Assembly (NCBI GenBank): GCA_947632405.1
Contig: CANRPE010000007.1
Coordinates: 1-41,015 of the forward strand
Direction: 5' to 3'
DNA from: an uncultured Bacilli bacterium
GTDB lineage: Bacteria; Bacillota_I; Bacilli_A; RF39; UBA660
DNA: 41,015 nucleotides
The notes under the pieces: generated by a model
Database searches by the model: none
What the model was told of the DNA's origin: nothing
What the model saw: the letters and a program-made list of their open reading frames with translations, nothing else
In this document: positions 4,592 through 20,589 of the stretch, one piece after another
Layout: every line of letters begins with the position of its first letter
How positions within the stretch are numbered: position 1 is the stretch's first letter
Program-made: the position numbers and the translations under genes

Positions 4592-5236
4592 ATGGAACAA
4601 AATAAAATTTATTCTAGAATGTTTACTTGGTTATTTGTGGGGTTAATGATTACGTTTGTTTCAGGATTTTGTTTATCTTTGAATCAACCATTACTATATA
4701 GTATTCTTTCAATAGGAGTTATTCCAATTATTATTTTAGAATTAGTAATAGCAGTGATTATGGGATTTCGTATACAAAAAATGAAACCTTTTACTACTAA
4801 ATTGTGTTATATTTTATATTCAATAACAACAGGAATTACTTTTTCAACTATTTTTATAACATATAAAGTATCATCAATTATGTTTATATTTGCAATAACA
4901 GCTATTATTTTTGCAATCTTTGCAATTATAGGGTATACAACGAAAATTGATTTAACAAAAATTTCAGTTATTCTTTTTGTAGCTTTACTAGTAAGTATTA
5001 TTGTATCGTTATTAAATATCTTTATTTTTAAAAGTAGTCAATTGGAATTTGGTTTATCTATTTTGTGTATTATTATTTTCTTAGGCTATATTGCATATGA
5101 TATTAATTCAGTAAAATATTTAATGAATAGCGTTGGTGAAGAAAAAGCCGCAGTTTATGGAGCTTTTCAATTATATTTAGATTTTATTAATATTTTTATT
5201 CGTTTATTAGAAATATTCGGTAAAAATGATGATTAA
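4592..5236 (+). CDS. Bax inhibitor-1 (BI-1)/YccA-family membrane protein
   Basis: The 214-aa protein has about seven hydrophobic segments. Its C-terminal signature AYDIN...K and GAFQLYLDFINIFIRLLEIFG is characteristic of BI-1/YccA proteins. These are small integral membrane proteins; a Bacillus homologue (YetJ) is a pH-sensitive calcium leak channel. The family role in bacteria is membrane homeostasis or modulation of FtsH-type proteolysis, and the precise role here is unknown. AGGAGAGG lies 8 nt ahead of the ATG and the gap to the preceding gene is 18 nt, so cotranscription is likely. Confidence 0.88.
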   Translation: MEQNKIYSRMFTWLFVGLMITFVSGFCLSLNQPLLYSILSIGVIPIIILELVIAVIMGFRIQKMKPFTTKLCYILYSITTGITFSTIFITYKVSSIMFIFAITAIIFAIFAIIGYTTKIDLTKISVILFVALLVSIIVSLLNIFIFKSSQLEFGLSILCIIIFLGYIAYDINSVKYLMNSVGEEKAAVYGAFQLYLDFINIFIRLLEIFGKNDD

Positions 5237-5256
5237 AAGGGAAAGAGTGTGATACA

Positions 5257-5793
5257 ATGTCAAAAACATATTTTAACTATTCATTTCAAATTAAGAGAAC
5301 AAAAACAGTAGCTATTGTTGTTGCAGTTATTTTAGCTATAGCAATATTTATATTTTATAATTGGTATAATAATAAAACAGTAACTCAAAAAGTAGAGAAT
5401 TTATCTTATAAAGTAGTATTTGGTATGAATGAGTTTGACGCAGTTGATTGTGTTAAAGCTTATCGTATGAACTACAAGAAAAATACTTGTGGAACAATTT
5501 GTATTAATAAAACAGATCTTAATAAAAATTACTTAAATGACTTAAGAAAGAATATGGAACAAAATGATTTTATATTTACAAAAGATAAAGAGCAAAAATT
5601 AGGTCGAAAAACTTGGAATTATATAAAAACTAAAAATAACGAACCAGTATTTAGCTATTATACTGCAAATACTAAAGATGCAACATATATAATCGAATAT
5701 GTAGATCAACAAAAATATTTAGATACAGATAGTATTGAACATTGTACAAAAATTTGGGATGATTTTAAAAAATCTATTAAATTAAATGACTAG
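5257..5793 (+). CDS. Membrane-anchored extracytoplasmic protein, unknown function
   Basis: This 178-aa protein is of no recognised family. A single membrane segment (about residues 18-36, VAIVVAVILAIAIFIFY) follows a basic N-terminus (QIKRTK), which predicts an N-in, C-out anchor with a ~140-residue outer domain. Four cysteines (VDC, NTCGTIC, HCTKIW) are all on the outer side and could form two disulfides. The gene closes the pcrA transcription unit: its stop codon lies inside a GAAA-loop terminator. Confidence 0.6.
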   Translation: MSKTYFNYSFQIKRTKTVAIVVAVILAIAIFIFYNWYNNKTVTQKVENLSYKVVFGMNEFDAVDCVKAYRMNYKKNTCGTICINKTDLNKNYLNDLRKNMEQNDFIFTKDKEQKLGRKTWNYIKTKNNEPVFSYYTANTKDATYIIEYVDQQKYLDTDSIEHCTKIWDDFKKSIKLND

Positions 5794-5811
5794 AAATAGT
5801 CGTTTTTTTTT
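5786..5811 (+). terminator. Terminator ending the pcrA unit
   Basis: ATGACTA and TAGTCGT pair around a GAAA tetraloop (with one G-T wobble), followed by nine T. The stop codon of the preceding gene lies inside it. Confidence 0.85.
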
Positions 5812-5836
5812 ACTTATTTTGGTATAATAATATTAG

Positions 5837-7834
<1,998 letters not shown>

Positions 7835-15128: not shown

Positions 15129-15166
15129 TTTTAATAGTATAAATAATAAAAATATGTAAATATTAT

Positions 15167-15194
15167 AAAAAGGTAAGTTATTTCTTACCTTTTT
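15167..15194. terminator. Bidirectional terminator shielding the invertible cassette
   Basis: AAAAAGGTAAG and CTTACCTTTTT form an 11-bp stem with a 6-nt loop. The A-run on one side and T-run on the other let it work in both directions. It ends the YihY gene and would also stop transcripts leaving the outward promoter at 15257-15285 in the present orientation. Confidence 0.88.
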
Positions 15195-15206
15195 ATTATT
15201 TTAAAA

Positions 15207-15232
15207 TTATCGTAGAATTACTTAGTCTATGA
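15207..15232 (+). repeat. Left 26-bp inverted repeat (recombination site)
   Basis: The repeat starts TTATCGTAGAATTACTTAG and ends TCTATGA. It is the exact reverse complement, 26 of 26 bases, of 16267-16292. Within it TAGA and TCTA arms flank a short core, the look of a tyrosine-recombinase crossover site. Confidence 0.95.
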
Positions 15233-15256
15233 TAAAAACACATCTATCTTATTTAT

Positions 15257-15285
15257 AGTATATAATATATTATTTTTATTTTCAA
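15257..15285 (-). promoter_or_regulatory. Outward promoter inside the invertible segment
   Basis: On the minus strand TTGAAA (15285-15280) and TATACT (15262-15257) are separated by exactly 17 nt, one mismatch from consensus at each box. It points left, away from the array, toward the bidirectional terminator at 15167-15194, so it would be silent as the DNA stands. After inversion it would read into paralogue B. Confidence 0.75.
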
Positions 15286-15323
15286 GCGATTTTTGTTTTA
15301 AAATATTAATTTGAGGTGATTTT

Positions 15324-16262
15324 GTGAATGTTTTAAAAAAGAACAAATTAAAGTTAGATGAATTACTATATGAATGGCTAGTAAACAAGAAAAATATTAA
15401 AATACAAACTTTTCAAAAATATGAACATTTAATTAATAAGTATTTAATAAATACGTTAGGACAAGTAAAAGTAAAAGAAATTTCAGAAAAAATTATTCTT
15501 AATTTTTTCATTAATTTAGAAAATCAAGAAATATCAACATCTATATGTAAAACTTTACTATATATTATAAAGTCAGTATTAAAAGAAGCAGAAAATAGAA
15601 ACTTATGTAAACATATTGATTTAGAAAACATAAAATTTCAAAAATATATTCCTAAAGTAAATATTTTATGTAAAGATGATCAAACTAGATTAGAGAAATA
15701 TTTAAAAAATGATATTAACATTAGAAAAATATGTATTTTACTATGTTTATATACAGGACTTAGAATAGGTGAAGTATGTGGATTAAAATGGGAAGATATT
15801 GATTTTCAAAATAAAAATTTGAAAGTTAAACGAACTATACAACGTATTAAAAATAAAAATCAAACTGATTTAACTAAAACAATACTTATTGCATCTACTC
15901 CTAAAAGTGAAAGTTCTACACGAGTAGTACCAATCCCAGATTTTATTATTGAACTATTAAAAATATATAAAAATAAAAATGATTTTTATATTTTATCAAA
16001 TAATGAAAAATATTATGATCCACGATTATTTGAATATTTTTATGTTAGAGTATTAAAAAAATGTCAAATTAAATATATAAATTTTCACGCACTTCGTCAT
16101 ACATTTGCTACTCGTGCAATAGAATCACAAATGGATATAAAAACACTAAGTGAAATATTAGGTCATGCTTCTGTTGATATTACTTTAAAAATATATGTTC
16201 ATTCTTCATTTGAATTAAAGAAAAAATGTATTGAAAATCTTGTTGAATTTATGTCACACTAA
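15324..16262 (+). CDS. Tyrosine recombinase (phage-integrase/XerC-D type)
   Basis: The 312-aa site-specific recombinase starts at GTG behind GAGGTGATTTT. The N-terminal SAM-like core-binding domain spans about residues 10-105. The catalytic domain has the first Arg in LYTGLRIGEVCGLKWEDID, the beta-hairpin Lys region in TPKSESSTRVVPIP, HALRHTFATRA, LGHASVDITLKIY with the Tyr nucleophile, and VHSS at the end. All catalytic residues (R, K, H, R, H, Y) appear present. The stop codon lies 4 bp before the right inverted repeat and the gene sits wholly within the repeats, so it probably acts on them. No excisionase, phage gene or tRNA attachment site is adjacent. Recombinases next to antigen arrays are known in mycoplasmas (vsa HvsR, vpma Xer1), which supports a DNA-inversion role. 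Confidence 0.93.
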   Translation: MNVLKKNKLKLDELLYEWLVNKKNIKIQTFQKYEHLINKYLINTLGQVKVKEISEKIILNFFINLENQEISTSICKTLLYIIKSVLKEAENRNLCKHIDLENIKFQKYIPKVNILCKDDQTRLEKYLKNDINIRKICILLCLYTGLRIGEVCGLKWEDIDFQNKNLKVKRTIQRIKNKNQTDLTKTILIASTPKSESSTRVVPIPDFIIELLKIYKNKNDFYILSNNEKYYDPRLFEYFYVRVLKKCQIKYINFHALRHTFATRAIESQMDIKTLSEILGHASVDITLKIYVHSSFELKKKCIENLVEFMSH

Positions 16263-16266
16263 AAAT

Positions 16267-16292
16267 TCATAGACTAAGTAATTCTACGATAA
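16267..16292 (-). repeat. Right 26-bp inverted repeat (recombination site)
   Basis: Exact reverse complement of 15207-15232; begins TCATAGACTAAGTAATTC and ends TACGATAA. It lies between the recombinase stop and the promoter region of paralogue B. Confidence 0.95.
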
Positions 16293-16374: not shown

Positions 16375-17373
16375 ATGGAAAGAAAAGAACGATTAAAGTA
16401 TATTTTTATTGGCATAATATTTGGTATTTGCATATTAGGAGGAATTGGAGTATACGCAGCATCTATCATATCAAGTATAAATGTAGGATATAGTAATGAG
16501 AGTTCCAAGTTAGTAGCAGATAATGTTCAAGCAGCTATAGATGAAGTATATGATAAAAGTTTTTCAAAACCTTCAATAGTAGCCTATGAATATCATGAAC
16601 AAGAACCAAATAAATGTATAAATGGAGAAGAAAAGACATGTATTAAAACGGATTGTTACAAAAAAGGTAAAACATGTAAACAAGGAACAGTAATAAAATA
16701 TTATGTCAAAGAAAATGAATATCATTATTTCTATGTATTACATGATGATGGAACAAAGATAACAATGCAACAAAGAGAAAACACAGTAAGAAATATACCA
16801 TGGCATGTAGGAGAAAATGATAATAGTAAAGGCCCTGATACAGTGTTACCAGCTTTAGAACAAGCAACCTCTACGTGGGTAAATGTAAATATGCTAGAGT
16901 ATGAACCAGGAGTAACAACATTATATGAAAATGCATATACAGGTTGTTCAACAACAGAAGACTATAAAATAAAATGTGAAACAAACACATATACAAGTTC
17001 AGTATTAGGAACAAGAAAAGCACGAGCAAGAATGATAACAGCCCTTGAAGCAGTAAATACAGGTTGTTTAGTAAAGAAAGATGGAGCAACAGATAAGACA
17101 ATCATTCCACCGAGCATAAATGAATATAATCAAGGCTCATGTCCAGATTGGATGTATAATTATCTATATCAATCAAAAAATTGGGGAGGGAGTTATAATA
17201 ACGATACAGTAAATGAGAACGGAGTATATGATTATCATTATTGGACTATGTCAGCTAATTCTGGTAACACTACTCATGCATGGTTTATATCTCGTGCTGG
17301 ACATTTAGATATATATGATGCTTATGTAACTAGTGATGGAGCACGAGCAGTCGTGGAAATAACCAAGCCATAA
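16375..17373 (+). CDS. Variable surface protein, paralogue B (first of the array)
   Basis: This 332-aa family member is nearest the recombinase. Its signal or anchor differs from the others (about residues 11-28, IFIGIIFGICILGGIGVYAA) and then joins the common block SSINVGYSNESSKLVADNVQ. The Cys motif (CINGEEKTC, DCYKKGKTC), RKARARMITALEA, SCPDWMYNYL and YWTMS follow. The variable segment (17245-17337) encodes ANSGNTTHAWFISRAGHLD and onward to GARAVVEITKP. The ribosome site is GAGAGGT rather than the cartridge AGGTGATCT. It is the only member without a nine-G promoter and the only one positioned to be driven by the invertible promoter. A switchable surface protein is inferred; the ligand is unknown. 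Confidence 0.8.
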   Translation: MERKERLKYIFIGIIFGICILGGIGVYAASIISSINVGYSNESSKLVADNVQAAIDEVYDKSFSKPSIVAYEYHEQEPNKCINGEEKTCIKTDCYKKGKTCKQGTVIKYYVKENEYHYFYVLHDDGTKITMQQRENTVRNIPWHVGENDNSKGPDTVLPALEQATSTWVNVNMLEYEPGVTTLYENAYTGCSTTEDYKIKCETNTYTSSVLGTRKARARMITALEAVNTGCLVKKDGATDKTIIPPSINEYNQGSCPDWMYNYLYQSKNWGGSYNNDTVNENGVYDYHYWTMSANSGNTTHAWFISRAGHLDIYDAYVTSDGARAVVEITKP

Positions 17374-17396
17374 ATTGCACTTCAGTGTAATTTTTT
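17374..17396 (+). terminator. UUCA-loop terminator after paralogue B
   Basis: ATTGCAC and GTGTAAT pair around TTCA, then a T-run; it abuts the stop codon. First part of the 87-bp cartridge 17374-17460. Confidence 0.75.
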
Positions 17397-17397
17397 C

Positions 17398-17428
17398 TTG
17401 CAAAATCATAAACGGGGGGGGGTATAAT
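17398..17428 (+). promoter_or_regulatory. Promoter with nine-G tract (paralogue C)
   Basis: TTGCAA (17398-17403), a 19-nt spacer ending in nine G (17414-17422), and TATAAT (17423-17428). Same geometry as copy A, with the spacer beginning AATCATAAAC. Confidence 0.8.
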
Positions 17429-17460
17429 AATCTTAGATAAATAAAAATAGGTGATCTAAG

Positions 17461-18459: not shown

Positions 18460-18482
18460 ATTGCACTTCGGTGTAATTTTTT
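18460..18482 (+). terminator. UUCG-loop terminator after paralogue C
   Basis: ATTGCAC, TTCG, GTGTAAT, then T-run; start of cartridge 18460-18546. Confidence 0.78.
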
Positions 18483-18483
18483 C

Positions 18484-18514
18484 TTGCAAAAATACAAACG
18501 GGGGGGGGTATAAT
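18484..18514 (+). promoter_or_regulatory. Promoter with nine-G tract (paralogue D)
   Basis: TTGCAA (18484-18489), 19-nt spacer with nine G (18500-18508), TATAAT (18509-18514). The -35 to -10 sequence is identical to that of copy A 18 kb away. Confidence 0.8.
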
Positions 18515-18546
18515 AATCTTAGATAAATAAAAATAGGTGATCTAGG

Positions 18547-19488: not shown

Positions 19489-19511
19489 ATTACACTTCGG
19501 TGTAAATTTTT
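19489..19511 (+). terminator. UUCG-loop terminator after paralogue D
   Basis: TTACAC and GTGTAA form a perfect 6-bp stem around TTCG; the outermost pair of the other copies is lost. A T-run follows. Confidence 0.72.
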
Positions 19512-19512
19512 C

Positions 19513-19543
19513 TTGCAAAATTACAAACGGGGGGGGGTATAAT
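19513..19543 (+). promoter_or_regulatory. Promoter with nine-G tract (paralogue E)
   Basis: TTGCAA (19513-19518), 19-nt spacer with nine G (19529-19537), TATAAT (19538-19543). Confidence 0.8.
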
Positions 19544-19575
19544 AATCTTAGATAAATAAAAATAGGTGATCTAGG

Positions 19576-20502: not shown

Positions 20503-20525
20503 ATTGCATTTCGGTGTAATTTTTT
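20503..20525 (+). terminator. UUCG-loop terminator after paralogue E
   Basis: ATTGCAT, TTCG, GTGTAAT (two wobble pairs), then T-run; starts cartridge 20503-20589. Confidence 0.72.
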
Positions 20526-20526
20526 C

Positions 20527-20557
20527 TTGCAAAATCATAAACGGGGGGGGGTATAAT
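20527..20557 (+). promoter_or_regulatory. Promoter with nine-G tract (paralogue F)
   Basis: TTGCAA (20527-20532), 19-nt spacer with nine G (20543-20551), TATAAT (20552-20557). Confidence 0.8.
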
Positions 20558-20589
20558 AATCTTAGATAAATAAAAATAGGTGATCTAGG

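Follow-up and report, generated by a model that had tools for sequence, protein, structure and literature searches.

The window, a stretch of 41,015 nucleotides from an uncultured Bacilli bacterium, carries a gene for a tyrosine recombinase enclosed by two inverted repeats of 26 bp (Table 1). The interior between the repeats consists of this gene and a leader of 91 bp, and the neighbours of the whole segment are a BrkB-like gene and a gene named here paralogue B. Both the perfect repeats and a full recombinase with its leader as the sole contents had been claimed in the preliminary description, and both were confirmed. The repeats matched as reverse complements without a mismatch, which was beyond chance, as the longest perfect inverted repeat obtained in 200 Markov simulations of the same 4 kb was 17 nt, with a mean of 12.9. 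The recombinase reading frame was intact and matched the Phage_integrase family PF00589 with an E value of 2.6e-29. Only two copies of the 26-bp repeat were found in the whole 1.35-Mb assembly when up to three mismatches were allowed, and a search for the exact repeat in viral contigs gave no match. Internally, the left repeat is built as an imperfect dyad with the arms ATCGTAG and CTATGAT flanking a short core.

Table 1. Features of the recombinase segment, the adjacent genes and the retroelement found elsewhere in the same genome.
Feature	Position	Strand	Basis or remark
Bidirectional hairpin terminator	15165..15196	.	Stem of 13 bp, A/T runs at either end; just beyond the left repeat
Left inverted repeat, predicted recombination site (TTATCGTAGAATTACTTAGTCTATGA)	15207..15232	+	26/26 complementary to the right repeat; related sites in relatives
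Leader with outward promoter and ribosome-binding site of the recombinase gene	15233..15323	.	Sequence
Putative outward promoter TTGAAA-N17-TATACT, reading left through the left repeat	15257..15285	-	Same position and polarity kept in relatives
Tyrosine recombinase, 312 aa, predicted inverter of its own segment	15324..16262	+	PF00589, PF14659; GTG start
Right inverted repeat, predicted recombination site	16267..16292	-	26/26 match; single pair in the assembly
Paralogue B, predicted surface protein, putative switch target	16375..17373	+	Sole paralogue without a poly-G promoter among those with complete upstream sequence
Terminator-like inverted repeat after B, predicted to confine the switch to B	17374..17396	+	Sequence; aligns with the element upstream of A and C-F
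Poly-G promoter of paralogue C (TTGCAA-19-TATAAT, G9), the standard type that B lacks	17394..17432	+	Alignment
Retroelement L081 (G000:C3:12000-23000)	template repeat 4752-4855; MutS-I-like ORF 5197-5622; Avd 5615-5959; RT 5922-7055

In an alignment with 13 relatives, the residues R147, K194, H255, R258, H281 and Y291 were invariant, and the predicted protein met the full R-K-H-R-H-Y catalytic set of tyrosine recombinases; catalysis by the window enzyme is inferred and was not demonstrated. Several identities were considered for it. XerC/XerD was rejected on curated cut-offs (84.8 bits against 335 and 73.6 against 330), and a Hin-type serine invertase was rejected as the enzyme is a tyrosine recombinase. 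As for a phage or conjugative-element integrase, no genes of such elements were recognised beside the recombinase in the window. An hsdS shufflon of the PsrA/CreX type was rejected as well, since the sites lie outside the adjacent genes and these encode a BrkB-like protein and paralogue B; one relative (L047) sits among genes that look like hsdS.

Relatives of the recombinase came from the family of the window bacterium, a second family in its class, and plasmids of Enterococcus and Vescimonas. Recombinases of this type were present in 40 of 291 genomes of the family and in all nine genomes of one genus of the other family, and most of those inspected formed self-contained cassettes. Inverted repeats of 16 to 41 bp lie on both sides of most relatives at about 31–61% identity. 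In the closer ones, the upstream repeat precedes the gene and the downstream repeat lies near the stop codon or overlaps it. Of the relatives with complete flanks, most had a pair of inverted repeats of this site type around them, often with the form TCGTAGAA-core-TTCTACGA, and such inverted arms around a short core are as expected for a putative crossover site of a tyrosine recombinase. Most other recombinases of the window genome (two on C27 and one each on C4, C19 and C6) were placed outside the group in the tree, and comparable flanking repeats were absent from the controls, namely both C27 recombinases and the distant relatives checked. No clear repeat pair was detected in L044, L046, L314, L320 and L322–L324, which remains unexplained; several other members without a detectable pair were cut by contig ends, and in L025 a single site was found. 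Scanning viral contigs with the family profile returned 80 loci.

The genes adjoining the relatives belonged to capsule, SipW/TasA-like, Ig-like or WxL surface operons. More distant relatives on plasmids of Enterococcus raffinosus, E. gilvus and E. faecalis (L174, L176–L181) adjoin secreted or WxL-type surface operons where annotated, with inverted repeats of 21–26 bp in E. raffinosus and E. faecalis and of just 14 bp in E. gilvus. In the genus with recombinases in all nine genomes, that of G081 (L041, L042, L183–L195), many of them lie directly before NusG-like genes and capsule-type operons. The cassette L310 (G293:C18:4000-16000) is located between divergent capsule-type operons, both starting with a sugar-transferase-like gene, an arrangement suggesting a two-way selector whose flip might choose between two capsules. 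Two related penicillin-binding-protein-like genes, apparently truncated after the same NSCN motif, were noticed at 1128-2186 in L039 (G004:C23) and at 6890-7960 in L045 (G026:C8); a recombinase lies nearby in both genomes, and the motif possibly marks an insertion site. Contig ends were enriched near cassettes in the first 12 loci (P = 6e-5), and this enrichment was dropped as evidence when it weakened to P = 0.005 over 31.

The leader had been described as holding a minus-strand promoter that points outwards into a two-way terminator. The hexamers and the hairpin are indeed present, and in the present orientation the hairpin would halt a transcript from this promoter, but the promoter match taken alone did not rise above background (p = 0.10 in the leader), with 55 promoter-like sites found in the region and 53 expected. 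A single match is not significant in such AT-rich DNA, and the case for the promoter therefore rests on comparison. The best pair of -35 and -10 elements with a spacer of 16–18 nt, with a bonus for an extended -10, was scored on each strand of the leaders against dinucleotide shuffles. In nine cassettes, the combined Fisher p value was 8.8e-8 for the outward strand and 0.50 for the inward one; for thirteen more it was 1.6e-8 and 0.50, respectively. The two sets overlap by one locus, L305 of the second set having the same recombinase as L026 of the first. The subgroup of L040, L309, L311 and L318 showed a weak outward promoter. In L305, L311, L312 and L318, the first gene of the operon starts 22–38 bp past the repeat on the leader side, which leaves no room for another promoter, and these operons can hardly be driven by anything except the cassette. 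The outward promoter in the segment is supported by a match in the window and by enrichment across the family, while its strength and its use in the window organism are inferred. An Rfam search revealed no RNA element.

The same inversion could also work with the reverse polarity, B being co-transcribed with the recombinase at present (ON) and a flip turning it off. The interval between the recombinase and B has no terminator, and many operons of relatives begin just past the repeat at the recombinase 3' end, both of which speak for this reading. This polarity is nevertheless improbable, because inward promoters stayed at chance in both sets whereas outward ones exceeded it, and because the terminators, placed across the cassette from the operon, would block transcripts of the outward promoter in the present orientation.

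The position of the cassette relative to its surroundings was compared among relatives. L313 (G189) and L317 (G293), from the same genus, have cassette DNA 92% identical; their flanks match, yet the cassette points one way in L313 and the other way in L317. The operon start (TTTACTAGAAAGGAGTG) touches the recombinase end of the cassette in L313, where the terminator (AAAAAGAATG...CATTCTTTTT) touches the leader end, and in L317 the two are swapped. A homologous SipW/TasA-like operon, its best-matching genes sharing 50–56% protein identity, adjoins the recombinase (3') end of L309 but the leader end of L311 and L318. Likewise, a NusG-like gene adjoins the recombinase (3') end of L189 but the leader end of L191, whose recombinase is broken. 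A hairpin terminator stood opposite the surface operon in all eight assignable loci; L321 was left out of this count due to its weaker hairpin and unclear target. The promoter faces the terminator in the window, L184, L306, L307 and L313, and it faces the operon in L312, L317 and L318. The terminator lying opposite the operon, together with the occurrence of both orientations, indicates that the cassette flips within a fixed terminator/operon frame, and the orientation seen in the window is predicted to be the OFF state.

The pairs with opposite orientations are between species and none is within one strain. No opposite orientation within a species was found at two loci on the plasmids of five Enterococcus raffinosus strains, and strains sharing a locus were all alike. 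For the window genome, one assembly with one orientation and no reads were at hand, and inversion in this organism is inferred and not observed. A switch with intact anatomy whose inversion has ceased in the window lineage would agree with the single assembled orientation and with the broken recombinases of relatives, namely a copy with three stops in G099 and one with a single stop in G100, which suggest locked switches there. Such decay is unlikely for the window, in which the recombinase gene is open with all catalytic residues present and the repeats are identical over 26 bp, suggesting maintenance.

The gene facing the right repeat, paralogue B, has dozens of family members in the window genome (82 matches including fragments). 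An N-terminal signature was carried by 64 copies, and among the other copies testable by virtue of a complete upstream sequence, all 60 had a poly-G promoter, which was missing from B alone. The unit consists of a terminator, TTGCAA, a spacer of 18 or 19 nt with a G tract inside, and TATAAT; the tract was G9 in 59 paralogues and G8 in one. Promoters with G9 in a 19-nt spacer were located at 98-136, 17394-17432, 18480-18518, 19509-19547 and 20523-20561 of the window and at about 50 more sites of the genome. Judged by their layout they look like slippage promoters, and the constant tract length is odd in this respect and unexplained. At L140 (G001:C49), a contig ends after BrkB inside TTGACA...GGGGG, suggesting that putative poly-G promoters also occur in a sister species and break its assembly. 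In G001, which is of the same genus, the related cassette L040 also precedes the beginning of a gene that resembles the B family in its first 35 residues.

Inversion of the segment in silico made the promoter read across the repeat and into B, giving a predicted leader of about 126 nt. Against control by the cassette, B starts 82 bp beyond the right repeat, a distance with room for a weak promoter of B itself (TCGACA-16-TAATAT, 9/12). Inversion had been proposed to aim the promoter at B as the first gene of a surface-protein array; the read-through upholds B as the target, but not the array. A terminator-like repeat of its own closes the B unit, and the switch would therefore control B alone, each of C–F having its own promoter unit. 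The surface exposure of the B product is inferred. Its AlphaFold model had a mean pLDDT of 81.7 and was confident outside about residues 1–62; no significant PDB match emerged when the model was searched with Foldseek (best E 0.018, weak matches to C-type lectins), and no fold is claimed.

L040 and L309 encode recombinases with 84% identity, but L040 precedes the B-like gene and L309 precedes a SipW/TasA-like operon in another genus. Since these sister cassettes stand before unrelated genes in different genera, the cassette unit has moved. The same observation, along with the differing gene after BrkB in most genomes of the genus, would fit repeats that are merely the ends of a small mobile element, an integrase with terminal inverted repeats and no switch. 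At the BrkB locus of eight same-genus genomes, where an empty site was sought, the following gene differs and several contigs end, so that no empty site was definable. A simple mobile element is very hard to reconcile, however, with the single copy in the window genome, the repeated placement beside surface operons, the conserved outward promoter and terminator/operon frame, and operons 22–38 bp away that would be promoterless without the cassette. Moreover, the flanks showed no clear target-site duplication.

The predicted sites, the catalytic residues, the putative outward promoters, the terminator/operon frame, the two orientations among relatives and the promoter missing from B can all be read from the DNA itself. 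On these grounds, the segment from 15207 to 16292 is very probably an autonomous invertible promoter cassette, in which the recombinase flips its own segment and turns the promoter towards the terminator or towards B. The self-contained, invertible arrangement with an outward promoter that had been suggested beforehand is supported by the shared architecture, the outward-only enrichment, the opposite-end flanks and the lack of the family promoter in B. In the proposed mechanism, the encoded recombinase would bind both inverted 26-bp sites and flip the DNA between them. The leader promoter would face the terminator in the present, OFF state and B after the flip (ON). As B appears to have lost the poly-G promoter of its paralogues, the cassette would be its main transcriptional control.

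The Hin invertase of Salmonella is a serine recombinase acting with Fis and an enhancer, and its H segment drives a flagellin gene together with a repressor gene. Like the window segment, the H segment has inverted sites at its ends and the recombinase gene and an outward promoter inside, and Hin is the cited example of a recombinase within an invertible segment (PMC5903667). The window thus shares with Hin the recombinase gene lying in the inverted DNA together with the promoter, but it has a tyrosine recombinase, one target gene and no repressor that could be seen. The analogy drawn earlier to the hin logic consequently holds for the layout, with enzyme and promoter inside the flipped DNA, and fails for the co-switched repressor gene. 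The gene for RecV of Clostridioides difficile is not known to lie inside the switches that RecV inverts. The RecV switches (cwpV, flagellar) resemble the window in the tyrosine recombinase, the short inverted repeats and the control of surface genes (PMC5386303, PMC2784873, PMC5903667), and RecV acts on several of them (PMC5903667). In contrast, the recombinase, promoter and sites of the window form one unit with a private site pair. In Vpma switching, many genes are shuffled past one promoter via many sites, whereas in the window two sites would move one promoter at one locus. Both systems share recombinase-driven switching of surface antigens in a paralogue family, as described for Mycoplasma agalactiae (PMC2268961). 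PsrA of Streptococcus pneumoniae is likewise a tyrosine recombinase of Bacilli inverting DNA at short inverted repeats (PMC7096588, PMC4948785), but it swaps hsdS coding segments (PMC7096588), whereas the window cassette would move a promoter and leave the coding sequence unaltered.

Recombinases are usually encoded near their switch and only occasionally inside it, and for Bacilli one inversion signature was noted among 22 samples (PMC5903667). In a further study, in which invertases were sought near invertons, Bacillus-like Firmicutes had a median of 0 invertons per genome (PMC11892184). Promoter switches with tyrosine recombinases are already known, and the window cassette is a variant of them that parallels the hin segment in being self-contained; its kind is widespread among Bacilli and can move from one surface locus to another. 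The open-access papers searched did not describe any such self-contained promoter cassette with a tyrosine recombinase, subscription papers being outside the scope. If the reading is true, programmed surface switching in these Bacilli has been overlooked by surveys. As each cassette has its own enzyme, sites and promoter, sequence would show what causes switching and what it targets, and the cassette orientation in existing metagenomes would give the predicted state, ON or OFF. The cassette would also make a compact genetic tool.

The sole reverse transcriptase match in the window genome (C3:18155-18862) lies inside a paralogue array, next to an Avd-like gene (phrog_3206, E 6e-15), a gene for a small MutS-domain-I protein and an adenine-rich template repeat. 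The 3'-end targets of this diversity-generating retroelement are of the same family as the window paralogues A–F. In the clearest targets, which lie elsewhere in the genome, 17 of 33 template adenines differed and none of the 71 other bases. For B, a possible target, 18 of 33 adenine sites differed from the template against 20 of 71 non-adenine sites (one-sided p = 0.009); the adenine bias was significant in A, B, D and F, borderline in C and not seen in E. A broader picture can be drawn only tentatively and may well prove wrong. A portable, self-driving promoter module would spread through Bacilli and be installed before unrelated surface operons, and here it would have replaced the poly-G promoter of one member of a family of about 64 genes that is also diversified by a trans-acting retroelement. 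This would give three layers of variation, namely templated hypermutation, possible slippage promoters and promoter inversion. The single retroelement appears, from the target sequences, to serve a large family, many members of which are too diverged for certainty. In a survey, further template repeats are reported to be present in dozens to hundreds of copies (PMC6642488).
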